Shown: one piece after another, positions 2,793-53,280 of the stretch | How the letters are laid out: each line of letters starts with the position of its first letter | Position numbering within the stretch: the first letter of the stretch is position 1 | Assembly (NCBI GenBank): GCA_023129115.1 | Contig: JAGMCR010000011.1 | Span: forward strand, 1 to 64,000 | DNA length: 64,000 nucleotides | Direction: 5' to 3' | Source of the DNA: Candidatus Iainarchaeum sp. | GTDB lineage: Archaea > B1Sed10-29 > WALL01 | Translations under genes and position numbers: made by a program | Notes under the pieces: generated by a model | The model's database searches: none | Seen by the model: only the letters and a program-made list of their open reading frames with translations | Told to the model about the DNA's origin: nothing

Positions 2793-3149
2793 ATGGCACA
2801 TGGCGAGCGGTCTTTTGGGGAGAAGCTAACGAAGAAGCTCTTCTGGTCGAGGAAGATAAAGGCAGACTACAAGGAGCTTACTAAAACTAGAATCCCGTTC
2901 CGCGGCAAGGACGCGCTGGCCAAAGTCGCTTCCAAGATAAAAAAGCACGAGAAAGACGTGGCCGCCCAGACCAAGAGGCTGAAGGCGAGCAAGGCACGCG
3001 CCGCCGACAAGTCCCTTTCTGAAAAAGATAGGGAGTCGTTCCGAAATACTGAGGTTGACTTCTACGAGGGCGACGTGAAAAAATACACGAACCGTGTCAA
3101 GAAGCTAAAAGAACTGGCCCAAAAAATCCGCGACCACATCGGCGCCTAG
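2793..3149 (+). CDS. Lysine-rich coiled-coil protein, 118 aa
   Basis: A highly basic, fully helical protein starting MAHGERSFGEKLTKK and dominated by heptad-like Lys/Glu/Leu patterns between residues 30 and 115 (ASKIKKHEKDVAAQTKRLKA, KKYTNRVKKLKELAQKI). There is no membrane segment and no Cys. I do not recognise a family. The start is chosen because a TATA box is 27 bp upstream. An in-frame extension towards 2655 would cross that promoter. It overlaps polB by four bases at the 3' end in convergent orientation. Its composition would fit a nucleic-acid or membrane-surface binding protein, but no activity can be assigned. Confidence 0.65.
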   Translation: MAHGERSFGEKLTKKLFWSRKIKADYKELTKTRIPFRGKDALAKVASKIKKHEKDVAAQTKRLKASKARAADKSLSEKDRESFRNTEVDFYEGDVKKYTNRVKKLKELAQKIRDHIGA

Positions 3150-6100
3150 GCCCACGCGCCGAGCCCTGACTGCTTCGTGCCGGTCGTCAACTCATCAGCG
3201 CTTATTCCCAATTCTGCCAGAATCTTCATGACCGCCGGCAAGAGCTGGTGCGTCACGTAGTAGTCGACGTCCGGCTTCCGCTTCCCCAGCATCCTAACCG
3301 AATAGCTCCGGTCGCCAATGTTGCCCGCGCCCTGGCACACGACGTACTCAATCAGCGTGCCCTTCCCCACTTTTTCTCCTGCTTCCTCGAGCCGCTTCGC
3401 CGCGCGCACGTGCGGCCCCTGCGACGCATATCTGTCTATCCTGCGCTTGAGCTGCGTGCGGATTACATACTCCTCGATTGGCACCTCGTTCTTCCGCACC
3501 TGCTCAATCTTCTCGAGCACCAACGCCTTCGCGCCCTCCACGTCGTTCTCCAGCACTTTCTGGATTACCTCGCGCTGTGTCTTCTTCGCGATCTGCGACC
3601 AATCCCTCCGCACGAACTCGAGGCCCTTTATCTCGACCTGCCCGTCCTCGCGAATCAACGCGTACCGCTTCTTCGCCGCGCCGCCCTCCTTCTTGGTAAC
3701 GAAAATCCCGCGCGGGTAAAACCCCTCCAGCTCCAGTTCCATCGTGCCCGGCAGGGAGTCGTTGTAGTCCTTCAAAAACTTCAAGACTTCGTCCTTGCTT
3801 TTTCCGCCGCGCAGCATGAACACACTGTCCGTGTTATGTAGCAGTATTTGCCCGCAACTATCTACAAACATGTGTGAGTTAGAAACACTTAAGTCATAGA
3901 CGTAATCTGTGTTTTGTTCTTGGGTTATCGTAGTCTCCATTCGTGAATTGTGTTTTTTTGACGTCTTAACCGTGTAAACTTTTTTGCTTGGCCGGTATTG
4001 CAAAGAAAAGTTTATCCCAAGCTGTTTGAGCAGTAGGGTTACTCCTCCAATCAACTGTTGTGAGTTAGTGGTATAAGCAAAATTGTCTTCACAGTATTTT
4101 TGTGAGTACCTTTTGTCAAAGGATTTTGAGCCATCACCCAAGAGCAACCAGTCCAAGAAGTACTTTTGTTTGTTTTTTGGTAAGTGGAAAATGAACTCAG
4201 GTATTTTTTTACCTCTGCTCTTTTGCCCACAAAATTGTTTGAAAACTACTGCAGCCAATTGACTCATCATTTGTAGTTTGTGTGTTTTGTCTTGATACGT
4301 AAGTGTTTTATTACTATATCTAAGCGTTCTTTTGTTTTTATTTGGTGATACTATACTGGCAGAAGTGTTCTCAAACAACAAGTGATAATCTGTTTTCAAC
4401 TGTTTCAAGAGTTTTGTATCACTGTTTGCTATTGATGCACCCCACCTCGTTTTAGTGGTTTCAGGTGTGCTGGAACTGCCTTCTCCTATGTAAAGGGCGA
4501 GGAGGCGGAGCAACGCGTCAAACTCCTTGGAGTCAAGGGGTATGTGTCTCTTGAGCTTGACTGGTTTTTTACGTGTTGTCCAATTGAACCAAACAAACTT
4601 TTTATCTGCTGAAACACTCGCGGTTTTTTCTCTTCCTTTGTAAGTCGTGGTGTGCGAGTAATCTTTAATCCATTCATAAACATCAATTTTCTTGATTTTT
4701 TTGACTGTTGGGATTTGGTTTATCCTCGCAAGGTGTTCAGTAGTTATCTCCTCTGGTTTTGCGCATACGTACCCGCCTCGTTTGTTTATTATTAACGAGT
4801 GGTCTTTGGTTACTCGTGTTTCACCGTATTTTTGGTTCACTCGGAATATTTTCTTCTTTGTTTTATGGCGTATAACCTCAGTTATTGGTTGCCATTCAGG
4901 TTTCTTGGTTTTTGGGTTTGCTGTCAGCGCTTTGTGGTTTTTGAGTGGGATAACCTCTTTGCCCCCCACTTTCACGGCATTATGCCTATTTTCATTGAAG
5001 AGTTCCCCAATATTTTTTATTTGTATAACTCCGGTTGGGTCAAGAAGGGTTACAAACCGGTCTGAGGTTATGCTGTCCCCATATATTACCTTGAACCCGC
5101 GCTTCTCCGCCTCGGCGGCAGCGTCCTTGATGAACTTCCTGCCCCACGCAGTAGTGGCTTCCGCGCAGTCGAACGAGTACCACCGCGCCCGCGCGTAATT
5201 TAGGTAGCCGTAGGTTGCATTGGCCGCGATTTTAAGTGCTTTGTTTTCAGCGTCCAACAACTTTTTTTCTTTCCCACTTGCCTTCTTCAATTTCTTTTTC
5301 GCCTCGGCCCGCGCGCCGGTGACTTTCTCGAGCATCTCGGGAATCAATCCCTTCTTTTTCCTGCAGAACTTCTGCCCCATCGGCGACTCGAACGGCTTTT
5401 TGCAGCAGCCGCAGTCCAGCGTGCCCGGGTCGATGTTGTGCGAAATGATTATGCTTGGGTACAGCCCCTTGAAGTCCAAGACAGCAAGGTCCTCGTGCAG
5501 CCCCGGCTCCGGCTCTTTTACAAAAGCGCCCTTGAGCTGCTTGTTGATGCGTGCCTTGAACTCGCCCTCGACCGGCCTGTTCGGAGCGATTTCGCCGCGC
5601 TTCTTCGCCATCCGCAGCAGCAATAACTCGACAATCTGGCTCGAGCTCATCCGCGACACGTCGAACGGCATCTGGTTAATCAGCTTGGACAATGCAGTAT
5701 AAAGCGGCAGCAGCTGCTCGCCCAACTCATAAGCCGCCTCCGCGTCCTGCAGCGAATAAGTCGCGAGCTCCTCCATCTCTTTCTTGTCTGCCTTGTCCCA
5801 AATCTTCCACAGGTTCTTTGTTTCTATGTCCAGCTTTTCCTTGCCCGTCAATTCCTTGTAAACGTCTTCGAGCGTGTACCGCGGCAGCTTCAGCGCCCCG
5901 ATTATGGAAAGAAAAACCATGCCGCGGTAGGCGTCGATGTGCACCCTCCCAGGAATCCGCGCCTTGAGCCCGCGCATTCCCTGGCGGAGCGCGATTCCCT
6001 CGCCAGTGCCAAGGCTTTTCTTTATCCCCAATTTCTCCAGCCGTGTCTTCACGTAGGGCAGGTCAAAGTTGTCGCCGTTGTATGTGTACACGACGTCCTG

Positions 6101-6664
6101 CCCCACGTCAGAGACGAACCCCTTGAGCATTTCTTCCTCGTTCTTGTAGCTCTTCACGAACGGGAGGTTGATTTTTTTCCAGGTGTACACCCCGCCTTTT
6201 TTCCCGTCGTGCGCTGACACCATCACTATGGGGTCCTTTTCGGCCTCGGGCATCCCCCGTGGGTTGTACGTCTCTATGTCAAACGCAATCCGCGTGGGCT
6301 CGTACTCCCCCCCAGCTTTTTTTGGCTTCCCGCCCCCCCACTCGTACATGCTGAACGGGACAATGTCGTGGTCAATCAAGTAGCGCTGCGTGTACGGGAT
6401 GTCGTACTCGTAAATCCTGCCCTGTTTCGCCAGCTCCTCGCGGAGCTTGGGCACGTCGCCCGGCGCCCTGACAAACACTTTCCACAGCCCGCCCACTCGC
6501 TCCGCTTTTTTCAGCAGCTCGTGCTTTGGCGCAGCCCCCTCAAAGTAAAAGTACGGGTCAAAAGCCTCTTTTATCACCTCAAGCTTTTTGCCCTTGACGT
6601 AAAGGTCGACGTGGCTCTGGCCGTCGTCTTCTGAGTGCCCAATGTCGATGAGAGCGCCTTTCAT
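3146..6664 (-). CDS. polB: Family B DNA polymerase with an in-frame intein
   Basis: Replicative or repair DNA polymerase with 3'-5' proofreading. The 1172-aa precursor contains a 414-aa intein, leaving a 758-aa mature enzyme of normal archaeal size. Exo I (FDIETYNP, about residue 130), Exo II (YNGDNFDLPY, about 195) and Exo III (YSLQDAEAAYE, about 305) are intact. Pol motif A (DFKGLYPS, about 400) and motif B (KIAANATYGY, about 482) follow. Motif C is split by the intein as YGD/TDS and would be restored to YGDTDS after splicing. A GGFAKQSGLGAWA-type basic tail follows the thumb (TGTKQSGLGAWA at the end). ATG at 6664 is preferred over the in-frame TTG at 6676 because GCTATAAAAA lies 17-26 bp upstream. 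Without splicing the catalytic Asp pair would be separated, so polymerase activity depends on it. Confidence 0.96.
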   Translation of the reverse strand: MKGALIDIGHSEDDGQSHVDLYVKGKKLEVIKEAFDPYFYFEGAAPKHELLKKAERVGGLWKVFVRAPGDVPKLREELAKQGRIYEYDIPYTQRYLIDHDIVPFSMYEWGGGKPKKAGGEYEPTRIAFDIETYNPRGMPEAEKDPIVMVSAHDGKKGGVYTWKKINLPFVKSYKNEEEMLKGFVSDVGQDVVYTYNGDNFDLPYVKTRLEKLGIKKSLGTGEGIALRQGMRGLKARIPGRVHIDAYRGMVFLSIIGALKLPRYTLEDVYKELTGKEKLDIETKNLWKIWDKADKKEMEELATYSLQDAEAAYELGEQLLPLYTALSKLINQMPFDVSRMSSSQIVELLLLRMAKKRGEIAPNRPVEGEFKARINKQLKGAFVKEPEPGLHEDLAVLDFKGLYPSIIISHNIDPGTLDCGCCKKPFESPMGQKFCRKKKGLIPEMLEKVTGARAEAKKKLKKASGKEKKLLDAENKALKIAANATYGYLNYARARWYSFDCAEATTAWGRKFIKDAAAEAEKRGFKVIYGDSITSDRFVTLLDPTGVIQIKNIGELFNENRHNAVKVGGKEVIPLKNHKALTANPKTKKPEWQPITEVIRHKTKKKIFRVNQKYGETRVTKDHSLIINKRGGYVCAKPEEITTEHLARINQIPTVKKIKKIDVYEWIKDYSHTTTYKGREKTASVSADKKFVWFNWTTRKKPVKLKRHIPLDSKEFDALLRLLALYIGEGSSSTPETTKTRWGASIANSDTKLLKQLKTDYHLLFENTSASIVSPNKNKRTLRYSNKTLTYQDKTHKLQMMSQLAAVVFKQFCGQKSRGKKIPEFIFHLPKNKQKYFLDWLLLGDGSKSFDKRYSQKYCEDNFAYTTNSQQLIGGVTLLLKQLGINFSLQYRPSKKVYTVKTSKKHNSRMETTITQEQNTDYVYDLSVSNSHMFVDSCGQILLHNTDSVFMLRGGKSKDEVLKFLKDYNDSLPGTMELELEGFYPRGIFVTKKEGGAAKKRYALIREDGQVEIKGLEFVRRDWSQIAKKTQREVIQKVLENDVEGAKALVLEKIEQVRKNEVPIEEYVIRTQLKRRIDRYASQGPHVRAAKRLEEAGEKVGKGTLIEYVVCQGAGNIGDRSYSVRMLGKRKPDVDYYVTHQLLPAVMKILAELGISADELTTGTKQSGLGAWA
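3833..5074 (-). mobile_element. PolB intein with LAGLIDADG homing endonuclease
   Basis: A 414-residue protein-splicing element inserted between YGD and TDS of polymerase motif C, a known pol intein site. It begins with Ser (SITSDRF), has a block B TKDHSLI with the conserved His, and ends YVYDLSVSNSHMF...LLHN followed by Thr as the +1 nucleophile. Two LAGLIDADG-like blocks, LLALYIGEGS and LDWLLLGDGS, indicate a homing endonuclease, and the acidic residues are retained in both. The DNA of this stretch is clearly AT-richer than the flanking exteins, which supports horizontal acquisition. All splicing residues look present, so it is probably active. Confidence 0.93.
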
Positions 6665-6680
6665 GGCTAAGCCCAATATG

Positions 6681-16623: not shown

Positions 16624-16980
16624 ATGGCAAAGCCCAGGAAGAGAATCTCCAAGATTGCTGGCGGGTCCGGCGCTGTCCAGGCGCAGTCGATTCAGAGGAC
16701 CCTGACCTGGACTAACCCATTGAAGTTCCTGCAGAACATCCGCTACCAGAGCTTTTTGGGTGACGACAAGAAAAAGGCGCTGGAGGGCCCGCACCCGCAC
16801 GCGCCGTTCGGCGAAAAGGTGCGCCACCACCTGGACCGCGTGCAGAGGAAGACGGGCAAGCGCTCGCTCTCCCACGTGACCCCAAAGACGCTCAAGGACA
16901 ATGTCTCACCCCACCTGGACAAAGTAGAGGAAGAGCACGGCCGCCGCTCGCTCTGGGCCCACCTTCTCGAGAAGGACTAG
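16624..16980 (+). CDS. Basic protein with duplicated HLDxV motif, 118 aa
   Basis: A Lys/Arg/His-rich soluble protein. Its C-terminal half contains two copies of one unit: VRHHLDRVQRKTGKRSLSHV (about 71-90) and VSPHLDKVEEEHGRRSLWAH (about 98-117), each with HLD-x-V-x5-G-[KR]-R-S-L. The N-terminal part has MAKPRKRISKIAGGSG and a TNPLKFLQNIRYQSF segment. No family is recognised. Leaderless, from its own TATA box, divergent from the membrane-protein operon and overlapping the stub gene by four bases at the 3' end. Confidence 0.6.
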   Translation: MAKPRKRISKIAGGSGAVQAQSIQRTLTWTNPLKFLQNIRYQSFLGDDKKKALEGPHPHAPFGEKVRHHLDRVQRKTGKRSLSHVTPKTLKDNVSPHLDKVEEEHGRRSLWAHLLEKD

Positions 16981-17363
16981 CAGTCCAGCGGCTTTTCTAT
17001 GGCATAGTTGTCAATCATCACCAAATCCACGGATTTGCCCTCGCACCCGTTTTTCGTGATTTTGACGTTTAGCTGAGCTCCGAGCGGCAAGCTGAAGCTC
17101 GCTGTGCCGTCTTCCGCCATGCTGGTGAGCCGCTGCTCGCCGTAGACGACGGTCACGCGCGCCCCGGGTGTTGTCGTGATGTCCAGCCTATACTTTACGC
17201 CGGGAAAAAGCAGGAAAGCCAGCCCAAACAGGATTATGAGCCCAATTGCCGTCAAAACAGCCCAGCTGGGGAGGCCCAGGCCCTCAATCGGGTCCGTAAG
17301 CACGTAAAGAGGTATCCCCCTGGCCTCAAGCCCGTCCACGAAGTCGTTCCATCGAGAAGCCAT
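16977..17363 (-). CDS. Stub protein with the giant-protein membrane anchor, 128 aa
   Basis: Residues 1-65 carry the same anchor as the four giant proteins upstream: W-x-DFVDGLEARGIPLYVLTDP-I-E, then GLPSW and one membrane helix (about 36-56). One Ig-like beta unit follows (ITTTPGARVTVVYG...DGTASFSLP) and the protein ends after KPLDC, where the giants continue for more than 2000 residues. The start is ATG 17363, with AGGTG six bases upstream. That Shine-Dalgarno overlaps the stop codon of the lectin-like frame, so the stub is coupled to the giant gene. It could be a regulator, a competitor for the anchor's partner, or a gene remnant. Confidence 0.65.
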   Translation of the reverse strand: MASRWNDFVDGLEARGIPLYVLTDPIEGLGLPSWAVLTAIGLIILFGLAFLLFPGVKYRLDITTTPGARVTVVYGEQRLTSMAEDGTASFSLPLGAQLNVKITKNGCEGKSVDLVMIDNYAIEKPLDC

Positions 17364-17372
17364 TGCCGGCAC

Positions 17373-17933
17373 CTATACCTTATTGGTGTAACTAATGTAG
17401 TCAATTTCTAGGTTCGTGCTGAGGTCCATGTATTCGGCGAACCCCACAGGCATGCTGCCCTTGGCCTCAGTCGTTTCAGCAACTTTCTTGAAGGCCTTGC
17501 CCTCCTTGACATAATACTTTGTCGTGCCACTGGGGTCCCATACAATCTTGTAGGTGTGCCACGCATTTGTGTTCGCGCTGTCCCCCAAGGTAAATTTTTT
17601 GTAACCTGAAGAGCTGCCATACGTCGCGTCGCCCTTTATGTACGTGGCGGCACTGAGGTAATTGGTGAGGCTGCTAGTGCCGTAGAACACGTGGAACTTC
17701 CCGCCGCTGTAGTCGTGGAACCCAAACCACGGGTCCCACTCGTCCACAGTAGTCCACTTGGCCCGGACTTCCACCGTGCCCTGCGTGTACCACTCACTCG
17801 TCTTGAGGCCGCAGTGCACGTGGTCCCCTGTCGCGGCCTCGCACTTGGCTATGCCGTTCGCAGCGACGAACGGGTGCGCCCCCGCAGTCACCCACCTGCC
17901 GCTGTCGGAATCAAAATTGTCAGTCCACGCTAT
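17373..17933 (-). CDS. ConA-like lectin/glucanase domain in -1 frame of the giant gene
   Basis: About 186 residues open in the -1 frame after the stop of the 2807-aa giant protein. DNFDSDSGRW starts the jelly roll, followed by GTVEVRAKW, WDPWFGFHDYSGG, WHTYKIVWD and a final LEIDYISYT, the strand order of LamG/GH16-like concanavalin folds. No GH16 catalytic ExDxxE is seen, so binding rather than hydrolysis is likely. There is no proper start: the first in-frame GTG is at 17891, inside the domain. It is most simply the C-terminal domain of the giant protein, reached by frameshifting at 17933-17939 or separated by a one-base sequence error. Confidence 0.65.
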   Translation of the reverse strand: MAWTDNFDSDSGRWVTAGAHPFVAANGIAKCEAATGDHVHCGLKTSEWYTQGTVEVRAKWTTVDEWDPWFGFHDYSGGKFHVFYGTSSLTNYLSAATYIKGDATYGSSSGYKKFTLGDSANTNAWHTYKIVWDPSGTTKYYVKEGKAFKKVAETTEAKGSMPVGFAEYMDLSTNLEIDYISYTNKV

Positions 17934-17939
17934 AAAGGG
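17930..17939 (-). other. Possible -1 programmed frameshift site
   Basis: On the minus strand the zero frame reads TCC CCT TTA TAG. C CCT TTA fits the X XXY YYZ slippery heptamer (CCCTTTA), with the stop codon next. A -1 slip would continue ATA GCG TGG, which is exactly the frame of the lectin-like domain. A homopolymer error in the GGGG run would give the same picture. Confidence 0.45.
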
Positions 17940-20900
17940 GACACCACCACCGTTATCGGCGGGAGCTCGCCCTCAAACCCGCTGTTGTCTGTGTAGGTCA
18001 CCTTTATAGTGTACGTGCCTTCGGCGTCATATTCCTGGCTGTTCCAGCCGGTTGGCCCACTTGCCGTTCCAGCGCTGTTCCACGAGAACGTCGAGGTGCC
18101 AACTCCCCAGTCAATCGTTCCCGTGCCCCCTTCTGTGCCCGCTGCCACGATGCTGAACGTCAGCGTGACAGTCCCGCTCCCTATCATGCTGGTCGTGGAC
18201 GGGCTTGCCCCGATTGTCGGGCCCTTGCACGCGCTGGAAGTCGGGTCCGGCTTGCACGGGTCAGTGTCGTCCGGGTCCTCTGCAGAGCACGCGTTGCCGT
18301 TGACGCTGTAGCCATAGCCGTCGCCGTCATTGTCAATGCACTTGTCGCCGCACGTCCCGCTCACCGGCGGGTCGTTCTTTTCTTCCTCGTACGCGTTGAC
18401 CTCGATTATGGACGGCTTAAGGTCAACGTCCGGGGTCACGGACTTCTTGAACGAGTACCTGATGTACCGCATCATGAACTCATCGTCAAGCACGTCGTGC
18501 TGTGTGCCCGAAACCCTTCCAGTCTCGGTGATGTGCGTCCACTTCTCGCCGTCCGACGAGCCGTCGAGGAAGTAGCCCTCGTACAGCGGGCAGCCGTCGT
18601 CCTCCAGGAACGTGTCAATCTGCTTGATGTTCGCGACGTGTCCCATGTCCACGATTATCTCACACTTCTTGCTCCCGGCGTTGCACCAACTAGCGCCAGT
18701 CGTGTAGCTGTCGTCAATCGCCTTGTCTCCGCCACCCTCCGCTGTGACTTCAGCGTCATCGTACTCATCAGACGCGTGGTCCACCCACAGGTTCTCGACG
18801 TAGTAGTCGCACGTCAGCTTCTGCGCGCCCGACCCGCTCACCATCACGGTGAGGTAGGAATCGCTCTCAGTGGTCTCTAGCATGAACTCTTCGCTGCTGG
18901 AGCGCCCTATCTCGCCCGTGGAAATGGCCGTGTCCGGAGTATTGGCTGCGTTCTCGGGGATGTTGTCGCACCCGCCGTACGTCTCCGGCCGATTGGCCGT
19001 CTTCCACAGTGACACCACGCCAGTGCCGGCTGCCCCTCCAGTGTTCTCGACAGTCGCGTAGACGTCATAGACCAGCCCGTCGCTCTGCAGGGCCTTGCTG
19101 ATAACAAGGTTGGCTCCAGCGGACTGTGTTGCCGTGAGTGTTGTCCACACAGGGTTGCTCTCGATGCCGTCGTCGTCCCTCACCACGAGAGTCACGTTGT
19201 ACACTCCCGGCCCAGGCACTGCGTACTGGTACTTGGCGTCGCCCGTGGTGGACGGCTCCTCGTCGCCGATTGGGTTGAGGGAGATGTAGTCAAGCGTCTT
19301 GGCCCCACCGGTTGTGGAGACCTCCAGCTTGTACCTGCCCTTGGCCAGGCTCACCTGGCTGGTGTAGGCAGTGTCCTCTATCTTGAGGTCGAACGTGCCG
19401 CTCCCGCCGATTGTTATGGCGTAGTCGGTCGGCTCGCCGCTGTTTGGGTTCGCCATGTTGTCGGGTATGTCAAGCCAGTACTGGGCATACGCCTGCCCAA
19501 TGCTCTCCAGCTGGAACTTGTTGCTCGAGTCCTTGTCATACGTCACGGTAAACCCGCTCTCGGCGATGTACTCCTCTGCCTCGACAACCGCGCCGCGGCT
19601 TATTGTCCACATGTAGTCCACGATTTCGCCGTTTGAGTCATAGCTGTCCGAGCCATCGAGCGTCACAATCGGCGTTGCGCTCAGGTCCGCGTATATCGGG
19701 CCCTTCACCACGGCAGTCGGCTGGCCGGCCGCAGTAAGCGCCCAGACACTCTCCGTGTTCCAGCCCGGCCTGTTGGTGCCGATGGTGCCCTCTGTCCAGT
19801 ACTCCACAAGGCTAATCGCGAGCTGCTGCCTGTAGCCGCTGAGCAGCTCGGAGTCGTCGCGGTAGTCCGGGTTGTTGTAGCACAAGCCAAAGCGCACGGC
19901 CTTGTCCTCGAACCCGCTGCCCTCGCTGATGTCGAGGTAGCCAACCACTCCGGTGCACTGGCTGGTCAGCCAGTCAAAGTCAGTGTTGTCCTCTATCTGG
20001 CCAATGTAATAGTCCTGGTAGTCAAAGCTGTAAGAGCTCTTGTCATAGTCTGTCTCGAACACGTTGTAGTGCGAGCCGTAGCTGAACAAGTGCTTCTGCT
20101 CGATGTTGAGGTGCCCGCGGTCAATCGCCTTCTGGAGGTCGCTGACGAACGGCCCAATGCCGAACCCGCCAGTGCTCCTGAAGCCCGCGTAGTCGACGCT
20201 CCCCGGCTCCGACACGCGGAGCGCGCGGTCAAGGTTCATGTAGCCAATTGGCTCGGCGTAGGCACCGGTCGTTTCGATGGGCGCGCACTTCTTGTTATTG
20301 CACTCGCACCCGCTGTCGCAGTCGCTGTCCGTCGTGCACTTGGGGTATCGGCAGGTGCCAGATATGGGCGGCCAGCCCGGAACGCATTCCTGGCATTTTG
20401 GGCACGTCCCGGGTATGTGGGTGAAGCAGCTGTCGCCTTCAGGCTCCGGGCCACGCTTTACTGCTTCTCTCCAGCACCACTCCGCTTCGGTGGCGTCGGC
20501 GCCTGTCTCGATTTCAATGTCTCCGCCGCCCAGCGTCCTGAAGTCAACAGTGACCAAGCCGCACAACATGTCCTCGTTCACGACCCACAGCTCCTTCGCG
20601 TCGGTCGGCGCTGCGCTGCCGGTCTTGAACGCGTTGCTGATGTCGCCGTAGTAATACTCGTCCATCACCTTCTGGAACGTCGACACTTTTACGTCCTCGG
20701 CGCCGAGCGCGTAAGTCGCCTGCGGCGTCCCCGCCTCTGCGTCAGCCAGGACTGCCATGACGAACTGCTCTGCGTCGCACACGCTCGCCCGGGTCCTGCC
20801 GCCGGCAAGCGCCGTGATTGCACACCCACCCGTTGTTATCTCGGTGGGGTCAGCGGTCTCGCGCACAACGACCTGGCTTCCAACGAGCCCCGCCACGTCG

Positions 20901-23900
20901 CTCTCGCAGTTGACGTTGAAGATGAGCCTGTTCGGCTCGCCGCCGCCGACCACTGGAATCTCGAGGTACGCGATTTCCGTGCCACTGCATATCGCTGTGT
21001 CGGGCGAGCCCTTAATGGTCATCCTTGCGTGGCCGCCCGGCGGAATCCTGTCGGTGTCGCTCTGGGGTATGCCGTCCTTGTTGTGCACGCGGTCAATGCT
21101 GTACGACAGGCCGTAAGTCTTCTCGACCCCAAGCGGGACCCACGCGAACGTGCCGAACACCACCGGGGTGTCCCAGTAGTTCGTGACGTCCACGACTTTG
21201 GAATAAATATCATTCGTCGTGAAGTCCCAGTCGAACGGGCCGGCCGGCTCTATCTTGATGCCGCCGATCTTGAACGTCTTGTTGACGACGAACCTGTCGC
21301 CTTTTGCGTACAGTGTCAGGTTGCCCGGCAGCAAGCCGCTCCTGGGGTCGCCCCCGCCCGGCAGGTACCTCACGTACTGTAATAGGCTGTTGCTGAACGG
21401 AATCAGCAGTGCGTCATCGTTCTTGTCGTCCTCGTAGCCCTCGCCGCTCTTGAGCATCCACTCGGACAGGGAGTCGCCGGTCGCGTCAATGATGCTGTCC
21501 GACTCCGCGCCAATCCCGAGCGCCACGCCCTTCGGGTTCTCGGCGTCCTTGCGCACTATGTCCGCGACGAGCGCCGCTGTGTAAATGTCAAGGCCCTTCC
21601 TTTCATCCAGGCCGCCGGATGGCGGGATAATCCCTGTGAGCTCAATGTCATAGTCGACCCACCCGTGCTTGAACGAGCCCTGGGGCCACGGCAGCACGCC
21701 CTCGATGTCTGCGCCGCTCTCGAACAGGTAAATCTCGAGGTCCGACGCCTCGGTCAGGATGGTGTCGGTGCCGGCCGCCAGCACGCCCTCGCCGACGAAC
21801 GCTATCCAGTCGCTCTCGTTCGCCGAAAGTGTCCAGTCGTACTCCAGCTTTTCCTCGGTGGGCTCGTAGCCCAAAGACGAATAGTTAATCAGCAGAAGCT
21901 GGCCGAGCGCGTCGTCGTACTGCCCGCTCTCGACAAGCAGGCGCATGTTGACGGGCACGTCATCAATGTCGATTTCGTCGGCAGCGCTGCTGGTTATTTT
22001 CTTGAACCACGTCGTCTCGCCGGCTATCTTGCTTTCCTTGAGTATGCTCAACAGCTCGAACGTCGCGGTGTCGCAGTTTGCGTGGCTGTTGGAGTCCTGG
22101 TACAGGTGGCCGCTCCACTTGTAAGCCCCGCACAGCGTCACGGTGTGCTTGCCGTAGCCGAAGTCCTGTGGGATGACGACGCTGCCGTTAATGCTCTCGT
22201 TCGCCGCCAGCGTGGTGCTCACGAGCGGTATGGTGAACGTGTACTCAAGGAAGCCGTCCGAGTCAGTCACCCACCCGGTGAGGTTGACCTCGTACGCGGG
22301 GTTGGTGGAGTCGTTGACGTCCCAGTTCGTGAATGTCCAGTTGGCGTTGATTGCGCTGACGTCCACTTTGTACGCGCTGGTGAAGTTCAAGTCAAGCGTC
22401 ACGCCGAGGTCCTGGAGCGTGGCGTTGATTGTTGGCTTGATGGTGACTGCCTTGGCGTCGCACGCCGTGGTGCCGTCAATTGGGTTCCACGCACTGCCGT
22501 CGTACTTGAAGTACCCCACGCACACCGTGATGTTCTTGGGGCCTCCTCCCTCGGAGCCCCATAGGAACTTGATGCTCGTGTCCGACTTTCCGCCCTGGAT
22601 TCTTGGTATGTCGACGTAGAGCAGTTCGCTTGGCTTGTCCGGGTTCCACTGGTGTACGCCGTCTATGAACATGAACGCCTTTGGCTCGAGCGAGTTCCCG
22701 CCCGCCTCAGCCGGGCCGTAGCTCCCAGTGTAGTTCAGTATCGCCAGCGGCTCGTCGCCGAGGTTGCTGATTGTCGTGCTGATTGTGACGTCGTCGCCCT
22801 CGTTGACAGTGGCCGGCGAAACGCCGATTGTGACGTCCATTTCAGGCAGGTCCACGACCTCGACCTGGAGCGTGTCGTAGAATATCTTCGGCTCGCCCGC
22901 GGTCTCGACGGCCATCCCGACGGTGATGGTCTGAGTGCCGGTCTCGCTGGGCACGTAGTCAAAGATGAATACGTTGTCGGCCACGGTCGCGTTGTGGATT
23001 GCCCCGCCAGTGGCGTAGGCATAGAGCCTCCCGGTCTCGAGCGTGGCGCCGGTCGCGAGCACGTCCTTCACGCCGCCCCACTCAAGCGCGAGGGTCGAGC
23101 CCCATATGAAGCCCTGCTTCTCGATGGTATAAACATTGTCGCCCTCTGCGAGGTTCATCTCTTCCCAGCCATTGAGCTCGCCGCCAATCACGATTGGCAT
23201 CACGTGCTTGTAGAACTTCGCCCACGGCTGCTGGTTTCCTTTGGTCCTGTGCTCGTCCTGGATGAATATGGTAAGGTCCTTGGACAGCGAGGCGTCGGCG
23301 TTCTCGAAGTTAATCAATGCGCCGAACCTCCTCCCCTCGGTCGAGCCGTACTCGGGCACGTGGTAGGACGGGATTACTTCAGTGGTGTGGTCGTAGAAGC
23401 GTGGGTCTTTGCCAATGAGGCTGCCCACGACCTCTGTCGCGATTATGTTGGTGACCGAAGTCTCTTCCTCTGGCTTGAGGTCCCTCACGTTGAACAACAG
23501 GTCCTGCCTTGAGTGGTCGTTGAGGAGCGTGGTCTGGGCCTCGTACTCGCCGCTGATTCCGCCGGTCTCCTTGAGCTGCGTCTCCATCTTGATTGCGAGC
23601 CTCAATTCGTCGTCCGCGTCGAGCGAGTAGTCGCTGCCCATGGTGTCGCTCGGGGGGCTGATGCGCGAGGGGTCGCTGACCCTCGTCACGGGGAAGATTT
23701 CCTGCTTGATTCCGCTGGTCCTCTCGATGCTCCCCGAGTACCCGGCCGGCACTGCGTACGGGTAGCCGCCCTGTGGCATGGTGCTAAGCTCGACCACGTA
23801 GCTGTTGCTCGGCACGCGGGCCTTGGCCCTGAACTGCAGGTAGAATGTGCTTCCCTCTGCGAACGTGTACGCGTCCTTGAACTGCTTGATGCTCCAGTCG

Positions 23901-26353
23901 CCGACAACGTTCTTGCCGGCCTTGTCCGTGGAGAGCCACGCGTCGTAGAGGTAGAAGTACGGGTGGTCCTCGAGGAACCTCCACCCGCTCGTCTTGGTGT
24001 TTATCTTGACCGGGACGTGCGTCCACTTGCCGCCGTTGGTCGCGAACTCGGAGCCCTCGGGGCTCATCCAGAACGCGCGGTAGCTTACCTGGGCGTTGTC
24101 GCTCTTGACGTTGCTGCGCACGTGCAGCGGGATTAGTATGTCGTACACGCCGGCGTCGTCGTAGTTCGCAATGTCAATCCTGAGGTACTTGGACGCGCCC
24201 GTGGTCTCGGGGTAAATGTTCTGGTTGTAGATGAAAGTGTCCGCCGTGGTGAGCGCGCTGATTGCGGGGTCTTCCACAACGAAGTCCGTGAGTGCGACGT
24301 CGCGGATCAGTATGGGCGTGGCCTCGATGTCCTGGAGCGAGCCGATTCCGCCGGTGAAGAACTCGACGTAGACGGTCGAGAACGGCTCCTGTGTCTGGGG
24401 GTCGTAGTAAGGCAGGCCCAGCGCGAGCTTGGCGTAGTAATTCCCGCCCTCTTCGAGGTCCTTGGTGTACTCGTCCTTGTCCTCGTCGAGCATCGTGACC
24501 TCGACGTTGTTCTTGACGCCTGTGACGTCAATAGTGTATTCCCTGCTCTTGTTGTCGAGCTTGATTGGCGATGTTATGACGGGGCCGAACTGCTCGCCCG
24601 TGGTCGGCGAGGTGAAGCTGGCCTTGAGGTAGACAGTGCTGCCCTTGTCGAAAGTGAACTCGGCCATCCTGTTCGAGCCCGAGACTTCGCTGCCGACGAG
24701 CTCTGGGAACCTCGTGGAGTAAGTGATGTCGTAGAGCTCGACCTCGACTCCCTTGTTGGGCTCGCCCTCGACCTCGGTCAATACCTTGAGCGTGGCCTGC
24801 GGCGGGATGACCGTGAGGTCGACTGTCGTGGTCTCGCCCGCGACGACCTGTGCCAGTATAGTGTCGCTCCCCTCCTCTTCCGAGGTAACGGAATAGCTCC
24901 CCGCCAAAAGCCTCCCGAACTTGGCGAGGCCTTCGTCGTTGGTCTTTGTGCGCTTGAGTATCTCGTCCACCTGGAGCAGCTGGACCATCACGTCCTCGAG
25001 CGGCTCGCCCACGCCGTGGGCGTTTATTACCTCAACCTCGAGGTAGCCCGAGTTGGTGTCGTCGAGGGGCGTGAGCAGCGCCTGCGCGCTGGTGGTGCCA
25101 CCGGTGAAGTCAATTTCGGTGGGCATGTAGTTGGCGAACGAGACCTTGGCGGTGTACGACTTCTGCTCGAGCCTGAAGCTGGCCTTGCCGTCGGCGTCGC
25201 TGTAGCCGTAGTAAATCTTGGTGCCGCTGTCGAGTATGTCGAGGTAGGCGTTCGCGACCGGCGTGTTGTCCCTTGCGTTGAGCACTGTTATCGTGGTCTC
25301 GAACCCTTTCTCGAGCGTGATGTCGATGCTCTTGTCCTGGTTGGCGATGTAGGAAGTCGTCGTCTCCGGCGCGTATGCCGTGCCGGTGTCCTCTGCCTTG
25401 ACGTAGTACGCCGTGTTCTCGGGCAGCACCAGCGTGGCGATGCCGTCGCTTCCCGTGGTGGACTGGAGTATAATATTGGAATAAGTGAACGAGAGCGGGT
25501 TTCCGCTTGCGTCCACCGCCGTCACCCGAATGCCGCTGGCGGGCTGGCCGTCGCCCCGCACCGTGACCGTTGCTGTGTAGACGTAGCTCGCTGTGCTGAC
25601 GGTCGGGGTGTACACGTCTTCCTGCTCCTCCATGAGCTCAATTTCGTAGTCGTCCTGCACGTCCTGGATGAACCGCTCCATGGTGGCGGCGTATTCGTAG
25701 CCGTCGCAGCTTATTTCAACTGTCTGGCCTTCCTGCGGGCAGTTGTCGTCGCTGTACGAGAGGAATAGCTTTTTGCCGCTGACGACCCAGCCGAGGTCTG
25801 CGGCGGTCCTGTCGCGGTTCTTGACCGAGACCCTGCAGCTGCGTGGGTACGCGCCTGTGGGCGTCGTGAGGGCTGCCTGGTCGAGGCTTTCTGCGGCGGT
25901 TATGCATGCCGCGAAGGCTGGGCTTACCCTGCAAACCAATTTCATGAACAATTCGTCGTCGCCGGCGAGCGTCAAGTACTCTGTCTGGGAGTCACAGTCG
26001 TCTTTTTCGACCAGGACCTCAATTTCCTGGTCTAATGGCACCATCAGTTCTGCATAGCCGTCGCTATCAGTGGTCGCGGTAAGCGCTGTGGAGCCGAACA
26101 TTGCGGCTACTTCGGCGCCTTCGACGCTTTGGCCGAAGCTCGTCACCTGCACTGTCAGCGTCGCCCCTGGGGCTGGAAGCAGCATAAATGCCACGAGAGC
26201 AACGAGAATCAGTGCGACCCCGCCAACGACCGGGAGGCTCGGGAGCCCTGCGGTCTCGATTGGGTCGGTAATCGCGCGGATTGGAATCCCTTTCTTGTCC
26301 AAGTCCTCCACGAGTTTGTACCATTTTTTCTCAAGATTAGAATAGAAACCCAT
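17930..26353 (-). CDS. Giant surface protein 1, Ig-like repeats, PKD and F5/8 C domains
   Basis: 2807 aa, or about 2993 if the frameshift occurs. Short cytoplasmic segment with the anchor motif KWYKLVEDLDKKGIPIRAI-TDPIE, one membrane helix (about 41-60), then an outside chain. About 60-900 holds CarboxypepD_reg/CNA-B-like beta units (GFETTITVLNARDNTPVANA). The CDAEQF domain common to all four giants is near 1850, and a Cys-rich knot near 1975-2020 (CPKCQECVPG, CDSGCECNNKKC). A PKD-like domain (2220-2420) appears interrupted by a CBM-like insert. A discoidin/F5-8 C domain lies at about 2530-2655, a Ca-binding DNDGDGYG at 2670-2695 and a last Ig-like domain. The likely role is adhesion to carbohydrate or cells. 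GAGGT precedes the ATG. Confidence 0.88.
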   Translation of the reverse strand: MGFYSNLEKKWYKLVEDLDKKGIPIRAITDPIETAGLPSLPVVGGVALILVALVAFMLLPAPGATLTVQVTSFGQSVEGAEVAAMFGSTALTATTDSDGYAELMVPLDQEIEVLVEKDDCDSQTEYLTLAGDDELFMKLVCRVSPAFAACITAAESLDQAALTTPTGAYPRSCRVSVKNRDRTAADLGWVVSGKKLFLSYSDDNCPQEGQTVEISCDGYEYAATMERFIQDVQDDYEIELMEEQEDVYTPTVSTASYVYTATVTVRGDGQPASGIRVTAVDASGNPLSFTYSNIILQSTTGSDGIATLVLPENTAYYVKAEDTGTAYAPETTTSYIANQDKSIDITLEKGFETTITVLNARDNTPVANAYLDILDSGTKIYYGYSDADGKASFRLEQKSYTAKVSFANYMPTEIDFTGGTTSAQALLTPLDDTNSGYLEVEVINAHGVGEPLEDVMVQLLQVDEILKRTKTNDEGLAKFGRLLAGSYSVTSEEEGSDTILAQVVAGETTTVDLTVIPPQATLKVLTEVEGEPNKGVEVELYDITYSTRFPELVGSEVSGSNRMAEFTFDKGSTVYLKASFTSPTTGEQFGPVITSPIKLDNKSREYTIDVTGVKNNVEVTMLDEDKDEYTKDLEEGGNYYAKLALGLPYYDPQTQEPFSTVYVEFFTGGIGSLQDIEATPILIRDVALTDFVVEDPAISALTTADTFIYNQNIYPETTGASKYLRIDIANYDDAGVYDILIPLHVRSNVKSDNAQVSYRAFWMSPEGSEFATNGGKWTHVPVKINTKTSGWRFLEDHPYFYLYDAWLSTDKAGKNVVGDWSIKQFKDAYTFAEGSTFYLQFRAKARVPSNSYVVELSTMPQGGYPYAVPAGYSGSIERTSGIKQEIFPVTRVSDPSRISPPSDTMGSDYSLDADDELRLAIKMETQLKETGGISGEYEAQTTLLNDHSRQDLLFNVRDLKPEEETSVTNIIATEVVGSLIGKDPRFYDHTTEVIPSYHVPEYGSTEGRRFGALINFENADASLSKDLTIFIQDEHRTKGNQQPWAKFYKHVMPIVIGGELNGWEEMNLAEGDNVYTIEKQGFIWGSTLALEWGGVKDVLATGATLETGRLYAYATGGAIHNATVADNVFIFDYVPSETGTQTITVGMAVETAGEPKIFYDTLQVEVVDLPEMDVTIGVSPATVNEGDDVTISTTISNLGDEPLAILNYTGSYGPAEAGGNSLEPKAFMFIDGVHQWNPDKPSELLYVDIPRIQGGKSDTSIKFLWGSEGGGPKNITVCVGYFKYDGSAWNPIDGTTACDAKAVTIKPTINATLQDLGVTLDLNFTSAYKVDVSAINANWTFTNWDVNDSTNPAYEVNLTGWVTDSDGFLEYTFTIPLVSTTLAANESINGSVVIPQDFGYGKHTVTLCGAYKWSGHLYQDSNSHANCDTATFELLSILKESKIAGETTWFKKITSSAADEIDIDDVPVNMRLLVESGQYDDALGQLLLINYSSLGYEPTEEKLEYDWTLSANESDWIAFVGEGVLAAGTDTILTEASDLEIYLFESGADIEGVLPWPQGSFKHGWVDYDIELTGIIPPSGGLDERKGLDIYTAALVADIVRKDAENPKGVALGIGAESDSIIDATGDSLSEWMLKSGEGYEDDKNDDALLIPFSNSLLQYVRYLPGGGDPRSGLLPGNLTLYAKGDRFVVNKTFKIGGIKIEPAGPFDWDFTTNDIYSKVVDVTNYWDTPVVFGTFAWVPLGVEKTYGLSYSIDRVHNKDGIPQSDTDRIPPGGHARMTIKGSPDTAICSGTEIAYLEIPVVGGGEPNRLIFNVNCESDVAGLVGSQVVVRETADPTEITTGGCAITALAGGRTRASVCDAEQFVMAVLADAEAGTPQATYALGAEDVKVSTFQKVMDEYYYGDISNAFKTGSAAPTDAKELWVVNEDMLCGLVTVDFRTLGGGDIEIETGADATEAEWCWREAVKRGPEPEGDSCFTHIPGTCPKCQECVPGWPPISGTCRYPKCTTDSDCDSGCECNNKKCAPIETTGAYAEPIGYMNLDRALRVSEPGSVDYAGFRSTGGFGIGPFVSDLQKAIDRGHLNIEQKHLFSYGSHYNVFETDYDKSSYSFDYQDYYIGQIEDNTDFDWLTSQCTGVVGYLDISEGSGFEDKAVRFGLCYNNPDYRDDSELLSGYRQQLAISLVEYWTEGTIGTNRPGWNTESVWALTAAGQPTAVVKGPIYADLSATPIVTLDGSDSYDSNGEIVDYMWTISRGAVVEAEEYIAESGFTVTYDKDSSNKFQLESIGQAYAQYWLDIPDNMANPNSGEPTDYAITIGGSGTFDLKIEDTAYTSQVSLAKGRYKLEVSTTGGAKTLDYISLNPIGDEEPSTTGDAKYQYAVPGPGVYNVTLVVRDDDGIESNPVWTTLTATQSAGANLVISKALQSDGLVYDVYATVENTGGAAGTGVVSLWKTANRPETYGGCDNIPENAANTPDTAISTGEIGRSSSEEFMLETTESDSYLTVMVSGSGAQKLTCDYYVENLWVDHASDEYDDAEVTAEGGGDKAIDDSYTTGASWCNAGSKKCEIIVDMGHVANIKQIDTFLEDDGCPLYEGYFLDGSSDGEKWTHITETGRVSGTQHDVLDDEFMMRYIRYSFKKSVTPDVDLKPSIIEVNAYEEEKNDPPVSGTCGDKCIDNDGDGYGYSVNGNACSAEDPDDTDPCKPDPTSSACKGPTIGASPSTTSMIGSGTVTLTFSIVAAGTEGGTGTIDWGVGTSTFSWNSAGTASGPTGWNSQEYDAEGTYTIKVTYTDNSGFEGELPPITVVVSPL

Positions 26354-50656: not shown

Positions 50657-52738
50657 TCATGCCTCTTCGGCCGTTACCCAGCCACATTCCCGCGTCACGG
50701 CGTCGTCCACCGTATTATAGGAATAAGTGCATTTCCTCACGTTGTTGACGTCCCGCTCCCACGACCGCTTGATTGCGTCCCCTGACACGGTGTCGTCGTA
50801 GCGCGGGTATTCCTTCCAAAGCGTGTAATTGTGCCCCCCGCCCCCTATCTCCCCGTAGTCGTCCTTGACGCGCGTGTACTTCGCGGCGAACACAGGCCTC
50901 TCAGGCTCTTGCTTGCCGGGGGTGCTGCGGTAGAGGCGGTAAATCTCTTCCACGCGGTAGAGCGTCTTCGAGTCGCACGTCCACTCAATTGGCTCTGAAA
51001 TGAACCACGGGCAGTCACTCTCCTCGTCGCCGCAGACAGTGGTGCAGTCGCCTGGGGTGCACCGCGTGTCGCCGGGCGACTCCTTGGTATAAATATTCCT
51101 CGCCGCCTCGCACGCGTTCTCCGCGTTGACGGCCGCTATGTCGTCTGCCGAGAGCGGCGGCCTGACCTGGTAGAGCGTGACGAACTCTCCGCAGTGCCAG
51201 TTGTCCCTGCCCTGGAACCCGTTGCCCTCGAGGTAGTACTGCTTCGAGTCGATGACAAGCTCGTAGTTCAGGTGCTCCTTGGCCACGCCCAGCCCAACCG
51301 CGACCTCGCTCTTGATGCTGTCGCGCATTTCCTTGACCTTGGCGGCCATTCCCCAGTCCTCGCCCGTCATGAAGCGCTTGTCGTACGCTTCAGTCGTGTC
51401 GACCAGCGTTGTCCCGGCAGTGTGGTGCTCTTTCAGGGCAAAGGTGTCGTCGTTCCCAAGGCACGTGTCCACGCCGTCGGCGTCGTTCTGCCCGCCAGTG
51501 TGCGCTATGCTCCCGCCGGGATAAACAGTAAGCTTCTGGCCCTCGCTGTCCCCGAGTGGCATTCCATTGAGCTTGAGCTTTGGCAGTCCCGCGCCAGTCG
51601 TGAACGAGGCATAGCCGGAGACGAATTCCGTGAGCGGCTTCCAGTCCGGCTTGCCAGTAAAATACTTGTCGAACCGGAGGTTCTGTGTTGTGGGGAACGG
51701 CTGGACAACCGGCCTGGCCTTTTTGCCTATGGCCCACGCCATGTAGTCCGAGAGCGTCCCGCCTGCCTCGAAGTAGTCTTCTGCCACGGCGTTGTCCACC
51801 TCGAACCCTGGCGCCCACCCGCTCCCCGCCGTGTTCTGCCCGACAGAGCCATAGTACCTTTCATGGATTGCGTAGTTGTAGTGGTACCACTCGCTGCCGT
51901 TGGTGCCCTCGTAGTCAGGGTCGTGGCTGTCGCCGCCGCCGGCGTTGTGCCACGACTCGTTCAATAGCTGGAAATTGTTGAACAAGTCAGACGTCAGTAC
52001 CGCGTACTTCATGAACGGCTCGTGCGTCGTGTACACCCTTTCTTCGGCGGGCATGAAGACCTCGAGCCGCTTGCCCTCGCTCGCGATTTCTGCGATTGGC
52101 TCTTCTGCGAGGGGGGTGAAGTCAATCGTGACCTCGATTCTGCCGTCCTTGCAGTCGTCCCACATGCAGTCCTTGAACTTGATGTCCTTGACTATGCCGC
52201 CGAACTCGACTGGCTTCGCAGTCACGTTCACGAGCGAGTACTTGCTGACAATTCCCTGAATCGTGTGCTGGATGCTGGACTCGAGAAGTGCCTTGGCAGT
52301 CAGCTCGTTGGCCGCGGTGAGGTTTACCTGGTGGAACGTGTTCGCCCAGCACGTCTGCTCGCCACTGGTGCAGTACTCCACGCCCGACGCAGTGACGCCG
52401 CACACGCAGTCGCCTTCGCCGCACTCGGGGTCGGGGAAGTTGAGGTCAGCGGCAAGCTCGCCGCTAGGGCAGTCGTTCACCACAATCGACATCACTGGCT
52501 CGCCACGGATTGAGTAGTCCTCGAGCCGCGACGTGATTGACGAGCGCACTTCCTCAATCACGCGGCTCTGCGCCTCGCCCGCGATGTTCACGAGCTCGCT
52601 CGAGCGGTACGCCTTCACGCTGCCCTGCACGGCAATCCTCTCGCTCGTGATTATGGACGTGACTATGAGCATAGTAATCAAAATAACAAGAGTCCCGACC
52701 ATGGGCGTGAAGACAGCGAAGCCCCGCTTCTTCTTCAT
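50657..52738 (-). CDS. Large prepilin-like surface protein, 693 aa
   Basis: Starts MKKKRGFAVFTPMVGTLVI: basic residues, Gly at the expected cleavage position and a 22-residue hydrophobic helix, the class III prepilin layout. After cleavage the helix would pack into a filament and the 660-residue head would project outward. The head has several Cys clusters (DPECGEGDCVCGV, CGDEESDCPW), Asn-X-Thr/Ser sequons (VNLTAAN, LNESWH, TNGSEW) and no enzyme motif that I recognise. The start abuts the stop of the archaeosortase-like gene (TGA|ATG), so they are co-transcribed. Size suggests a tip or minor subunit of the nearby pilus rather than the main pilin. Confidence 0.7.
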   Translation of the reverse strand: MKKKRGFAVFTPMVGTLVILITMLIVTSIITSERIAVQGSVKAYRSSELVNIAGEAQSRVIEEVRSSITSRLEDYSIRGEPVMSIVVNDCPSGELAADLNFPDPECGEGDCVCGVTASGVEYCTSGEQTCWANTFHQVNLTAANELTAKALLESSIQHTIQGIVSKYSLVNVTAKPVEFGGIVKDIKFKDCMWDDCKDGRIEVTIDFTPLAEEPIAEIASEGKRLEVFMPAEERVYTTHEPFMKYAVLTSDLFNNFQLLNESWHNAGGGDSHDPDYEGTNGSEWYHYNYAIHERYYGSVGQNTAGSGWAPGFEVDNAVAEDYFEAGGTLSDYMAWAIGKKARPVVQPFPTTQNLRFDKYFTGKPDWKPLTEFVSGYASFTTGAGLPKLKLNGMPLGDSEGQKLTVYPGGSIAHTGGQNDADGVDTCLGNDDTFALKEHHTAGTTLVDTTEAYDKRFMTGEDWGMAAKVKEMRDSIKSEVAVGLGVAKEHLNYELVIDSKQYYLEGNGFQGRDNWHCGEFVTLYQVRPPLSADDIAAVNAENACEAARNIYTKESPGDTRCTPGDCTTVCGDEESDCPWFISEPIEWTCDSKTLYRVEEIYRLYRSTPGKQEPERPVFAAKYTRVKDDYGEIGGGGHNYTLWKEYPRYDDTVSGDAIKRSWERDVNNVRKCTYSYNTVDDAVTRECGWVTAEEA

Positions 52739-53245
52739 TCACTTCTCCGTTAAGAGCCGGCCCAATTTAAGCTTTTCCCGCAGGACGTCCCGCAAATACC
52801 ACGCCGCGTAAAACCCGACAATCGCCACCACCAGTGTCGCGCGGAACAAAACAGAATGCACAATCTCCACTGCCCCCGCGCCCCACGCCTGCCACGCAAG
52901 CATCGTCGCCGCAATCCTCAAGGCGTTAATCATCATCACAAAAGCAAACGCCCCCGCAATCCCGAACACCCGCTCCCTCTTCGCGCGGTCCTCTGTCGAA
53001 AAAATCGCTCCCGCCAGCACAGCAACCTCAATGTCGCCCACGCACAGCGGAATCACGCGCACCGAAAGCGAGTTGAAGAACACGAGCGCGCCCTGCGAGT
53101 AAGCCACCCCGAACACCGAGAGCAGTGCCGCCGACATCCACGCGGTCAGCCCCTGCAGCGCCGGCATCACGCCAGAAAGCGCGAGATAGGCAAGGCTGCC
53201 GAATACCACAATCCCAACAGCAAATCTCAGGCCTTTCCCCGGCAT
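52739..53245 (-). CDS. Archaeosortase/exosortase family protein
   Basis: A 168-aa multi-pass membrane protein with about five helices. It carries the exosortase triad in order: C68 in VIPLCVGDIE, R110 in MMINALRIAA and H130 in EIVHSVLF, with usual spacing (42 and 20 residues). These transpeptidase-like enzymes cleave C-terminal sorting signals of surface proteins and attach them to a lipid. Candidates for a substrate in this window are few: the giant proteins do not end in a typical PGF-CTERM, while the Cys-rich protein at 13022-13630 ends VPFADVSSA, hydrophobic, RKK. It is co-transcribed with the large prepilin-like gene and divergent from the secretion ATPase, 35 bp apart. Confidence 0.75.
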   Translation of the reverse strand: MPGKGLRFAVGIVVFGSLAYLALSGVMPALQGLTAWMSAALLSVFGVAYSQGALVFFNSLSVRVIPLCVGDIEVAVLAGAIFSTEDRAKRERVFGIAGAFAFVMMINALRIAATMLAWQAWGAGAVEIVHSVLFRATLVVAIVGFYAAWYLRDVLREKLKLGRLLTEK

Positions 53246-53249
53246 TACT

Positions 53250-53260
53250 CTTATATACTC
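53250..53260 (+). promoter_or_regulatory. TATA box of the pilus ATPase operon
   Basis: CTTATATACTC is centred 26 bp before the ATG at 53281, a leaderless arrangement. The divergent archaeosortase-like start at 53245 lies only five bases away. Confidence 0.65.
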
Positions 53261-53280
53261 CCCCCACGTTTTTAAGGAAG

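Follow-up and report, generated by a model that had tools for sequence, protein, structure and literature searches.

The 64,000-nucleotide stretch of DNA analysed here (the window) contains a gene of an uncultured DPANN archaeon for a giant surface protein, to which programmed -1 ribosomal frameshifting probably adds a terminal tail domain. As judged from its sequence and that of a sister species, this one gene probably makes the giant protein both with and without a binding tip. The gene, called in the sequence in frame 0 (17930-26353, minus strand), encodes 2807 aa with an N-terminal membrane anchor, CarboxypepD_reg-like repeats, PKD, F5/8 type C (residues 2537-2637) and a last Ig/PKD-like domain. 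Read from 26353 to 17930, it ends GTG GTG GTG TCC CCT TTA TAG. The heptamer CCCTTTA (17939-17933, minus strand) fits the slippery pattern X XXY YYZ in the 0-frame phase C CCT TTA, and the frame-0 TAG (17932-17930) lies directly 3' of it, as stated in the preliminary description of this DNA. The long open -1 frame reported there was also found: the tail (17373-17936, minus strand) begins with TTT, reads on past the giant stop as ATA GCG TGG ACT GAC AAT TTT GAT.. for 186 codons (isoleucine and the 185 aa of P0002) and closes with TAG at 17375-17373.

Among 106,763 sampled coding-like codons of the window genome, the only in-frame heptamer was the one at the shift site itself; in 32,667 sampled codons of the sister genome (G001) there were two, its shift site counted in. 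TTA accounts for 2.9% of the leucine codons of the window genome and CCT for 8.1% of its proline codons. The occurrence of in-frame CCCTTTA at the stop of the giant gene exceeds chance, although its rarity alone is not decisive, since a base loss from in-frame CCC TTT AT also yields CCT TTA. A -1 screen of the genome sample alone lacked the power to single out the site because many normal downstream genes are open in the -1 frame, and the junction of the sister genome was unlisted in it, as its AT-rich tail fell below the coding threshold. It is the heptamer and its conservation, not the screen, that single out the shift site.

The sister genome is one genome of the same genus, in which contig 39 (WALL01000039.1, DPANN group archaeon isolate S014_61_esom) carries the 3' end of the ortholog, with 42% aa identity across the last 231 residues, and the downstream stub gene (53%). 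The ortholog ends GTG GTG GTG GTG CCC CCT TTA TCA TAA and keeps the same in-phase C CCT TTA (L022:711-717), with the 0-frame stop one codon later than in the window gene. In the -1 frame, 153 open codons code for a C-terminal domain unlike the one of the window gene. The related genome thus has no single open frame at this site, and these features support the frameshift interpretation of the preliminary description, from which we infer the slip itself. The sister tail ends directly before TTAGGTGCC and the window tail at TATAGGTGCC before the stub, both at the same boundary. Over the aligned gene end the DNA identity is 56%, whereas the site GGTGGTGGTGYCCCCTTTAT is identical at 19 of 20 bases, with the only mismatch at Y. 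This stretch (17932-17951), consisting of the GGTGGTGGTG element, the heptamer and the next T, is conserved above the surrounding sequence in a comparison of two species only. Allowing up to two mismatches, a search of 19 genomes from the phylum found the 20-mer nowhere else; an exact match in IMG/VR (L129) lies in an unrelated context and was taken as chance.

The main alternative named in the preliminary description was that an assembly or read error had put the length of GGGG, the C run as read on the plus strand, wrong by one base. Lengthening the C run by a single base in each genome would indeed join the frames into continuous genes, and both assemblies are MAGs. However, since the sister species has the same heptamer in the same phase, an immediate frame-0 stop and an open -1 tail, a one-off assembly error is unlikely, and a sequencing or assembly error would need to have struck this one site in each of two species. 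Moreover, the five large genes of the locus stay open across 193 other C/G runs of 4-6, and the name of the sister contig (k151_...) is suggestive of MEGAHIT assembly from short reads, in which an error at C5 would be unusual. We therefore consider it very unlikely that the off-frame state, kept at the same site in the sister species, is an artifact.

A biological disruption of the frame was also considered, in which the change dates from the ancestor of the genus and was tolerated, leaving a gene that ends at its stop and, behind it, a relic tail that is no longer translated. The conserved CCCTTTAT is also the remnant expected of an ancestral in-frame Pro-Phe-Ile (CCC TTT AT) minus one C, so that the conserved bases could partly reflect ancestry, which counts against frameshifting. 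A relative from the same order (G007) has an ortholog with a beta-rich tail after the PKD domain, all in one frame, which counts in favour of frameshifting as well as of a relic; the terminal beta domain after PKD thus either predates the frame split or evolved at least twice. On the other hand, the -1 frames are open for 186 and 153 codons, compared with 4-11 stops in the other two forward frames of both tails, and codon usage in each tail speaks for the -1 frame. The sister tail is a different domain with a GC content of 0.43 (GC3 0.39) within a gene of GC 0.59, yet it lies in the same -1 frame. Taken together, these observations make an untranslated relic unlikely.

The divergent composition of the sister tail suggests that tails were recently exchanged; the window tail (GC 0.56, GC3 0.75) is near the values of its own gene. 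No sequence similarity was detected between the window tail and the sister tail (P0008), and the latter had no Pfam match. Only these two genomes carried the shift site; elsewhere among the relatives the gene is either shorter or a single frame: in G002 the gene ends earlier, close upstream of its own stub, in G003 (same family) it is one long frame, and in G004 a stub without a giant upstream was found within the stretch examined. Contig 39 of G003 also contains a 216-aa frame (L033, minus strand) for a predicted secreted beta-rich protein that is weakly like the sister tail (E 0.006).

The window tail was proposed in the preliminary description to be a ConA-like lectin domain. The fold part of this proposal is likely: P0002 scores 24.6 bits against the Pfam family GH16, just over its gathering score of 22 (E 2e-5), there is a weak match to Laminin_G_3, and the tail is probably a beta-rich ConA/GH16-like domain. 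Its single-sequence AlphaFold model is beta-rich and of low confidence (mean pLDDT 50, pTM 0.55). The top Foldseek matches of this low-confidence model were jelly-roll lectin, esterase and glycanase domains, with a best E of 1.9e-3 and none at E <= 0.001. The term lectin is a guess at the level of the fold, made from weak matches, and sugar binding is putative. No sequence match to P0002 was found in the PDB, and no homologs of the tail were found in 60 relatives or in the genome contigs searched.

The tail was also said to have no start codon of its own, which is right in substance: the first in-frame ATG, GTG or TTG is GTG 17891, the 15th codon, which falls within the domain. This GTG sits 38 nt past the giant stop, and neighbouring genes are often close or overlapping in the window genome, as would suit a separate tail gene expressed by termination-reinitiation or from an internal start. 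However, the SD-like AGGTGG abuts GTG 17891, the first start in the sister is codon 32 of its tail and has no SD pairing, and an internal start would cut the domain and give a protein with neither membrane anchor nor signal. A separate gene is thus highly improbable.

Just upstream of the heptamer, the internal SD-like element GGTGGTGGTG (17942-17951, minus strand) is a candidate stimulator of frameshifting. Since no 16S gene was found in the window genome, the anti-SD ATCACCTCCT was taken from the 16S 3' end of three relatives. In both species the element, a GTG run, pairs with it at -11.2 kcal/mol, compared with -9.3 for the lowest 1% of the gene's 10-mers; its spacing to the site is close, and, as a point against frameshifting, GTG runs also simply encode valine. 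In E. coli dnaX the SD-like element is reportedly further from the slip site than GGTGGTGGTG, and with this shorter spacing the element may only pause the ribosome. A downstream stem-loop or pseudoknot 5-9 nt from the site is a common but not obligatory element of -1 frameshifting. Folding downstream of the site, limited to stem-loops, gave nothing beyond shuffled sequences in either genome (z-scores near 0).

Genes for tRNA-Pro(GGG) and tRNA-Leu(UAA) are both present in the window genome. The former can pair with CCU and forms a better match to CCC, and the latter keeps two of three pairs on UUU; the two tRNAs suit a -1 slip at C CCU UUA. Both genomes have a short C run at the junction, and the frame might also be set at the DNA level by slipped-strand change of this run (phase variation) or by transcriptional slippage. 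The tracts usual for either process are far longer than the C4 of the window genome and the C5 of the sister, the off-frame state is found in both genomes, and TTTA, which would be dispensable for both mechanisms, belongs to the conserved unit. This explanation is the least probable of those considered.

In the programmed frameshifting that we favour, ribosomes on the giant mRNA would arrive at C CCU UUA, where the upstream GUG run may slow them via anti-SD pairing. tRNA-Pro(GGG) would re-pair from CCU to CCC and tRNA-Leu(UAA) from UUA to UUU, and a fraction of the ribosomes would enter the -1 frame and add the terminal beta-sandwich (ConA-like) domain, while the remaining ribosomes would terminate at the next codon. 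The slipped product would run through SPFIAWTDNFDSDSGR and the unslipped product would end VVVSPL. Since the giants are anchored at the N terminus, we infer that the C terminus is the distal tip, so that the membrane-anchored protein would be made both with and without a distal binding tip outside the cell. The tail domain differs between the two species, with the shift site retained. A more tentative possibility, which we hold to be somewhat doubtful, is that the conserved 3' module acts as a docking site for exchangeable tails: recombination would swap the tail, the ribosome would set the tailed share, and the symbiont could vary its host-binding tip while keeping an untipped form.

The E. 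coli dnaX gene is a cellular gene with two products, an internal SD upstream of the site and a clear stem-loop, in which the slip gives the shorter product. The giant gene resembles it as a cellular gene with an internal SD-like element upstream and two proposed products; in contrast to dnaX, the slip would lengthen the protein, and a stem-loop was not found. Reviews name fucA1 of Saccharolobus (Sulfolobus) solfataricus as the one unequivocal, well-shown case of archaeal -1 frameshifting (PMC8037382, PMC8211752) and ask whether other archaeal genes use it. Like the giant gene, fucA1 is an archaeal chromosomal gene, and a -1 slip at X XXY YYZ joins its two open frames, as is proposed for the giant gene. 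However, the enzyme encoded by fucA1 depends on its downstream part to be active, and its relatives in the Sulfolobales are full-length genes, whereas both species of the genus studied here keep the off-frame state with a stop at once and different tails. Conserved -1 sites have also been predicted in archaeal magnesium chelatase and in haloviruses (PMC5009743); these lie in other genes, are mostly A_AAA_AAR or G_GGA_AAN and have no exchangeable tail. CCCUUUA was proposed as the -1 site of giardiavirus in a paper that disputes it for other isolates (PMC8230311). The heptamer and its phase, C-CCU-UUA, are identical to those of the giant gene, but Giardia virus, for which a pseudoknot was proposed, is an RNA virus that infects a protist. 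No -1 frameshift case from DPANN was found in the literature searched, and the giant gene is the first candidate found for this group. What appears new at the sequence level is a -1 site that is conserved while the tail domain changes from one species to the other. This conserved candidate belongs to a surface protein that probably makes contact with host cells and, if true, recoding would set the ratio of tipped to untipped protein while the tip remains exchangeable.

The stub gene (16977-17363, minus strand; ATG at 17363) is a paralog of the giants' N-terminal anchor and first domain, that is, the anchor with one domain. Its AGGTG SD overlaps the stop of the -1 tail, as the preliminary description had noted. 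In the sister contig, the interval between the tail and the intact stub (L022:1179-2237) contains a truncated stub copy and a HicB/HicA-like toxin-antitoxin pair, neither of which is present at the corresponding place in the window genome. The giant gene belongs to four tandem giants (17930-50627, minus strand; 2466-2862 aa) with a common N-terminal anchor (..KWYxLLDxLDxKGxPVYxxIDPIExAGIPS..), which also occurs in giants of other families and classes. No -1 tail was found at the other giants of the window, where the open -1 frame past 35047 is the next gene. The giants are adjoined by a pilin-like protein of 693 aa (50657-52738), followed by an exosortase/archaeosortase-like protein (52739-53245, minus strand) slightly below the Pfam cut-off; a type II/IV secretion ATPase gene (53125-55587, plus strand) overlaps the archaeosortase-like gene on the opposite strand. 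Elsewhere in the window, a family B DNA polymerase of 1176 aa (3146-6676, minus strand) has an intein-like insertion, in which LAGLIDADG_3 scores over the cut-off and the intein splicing domain just under it.
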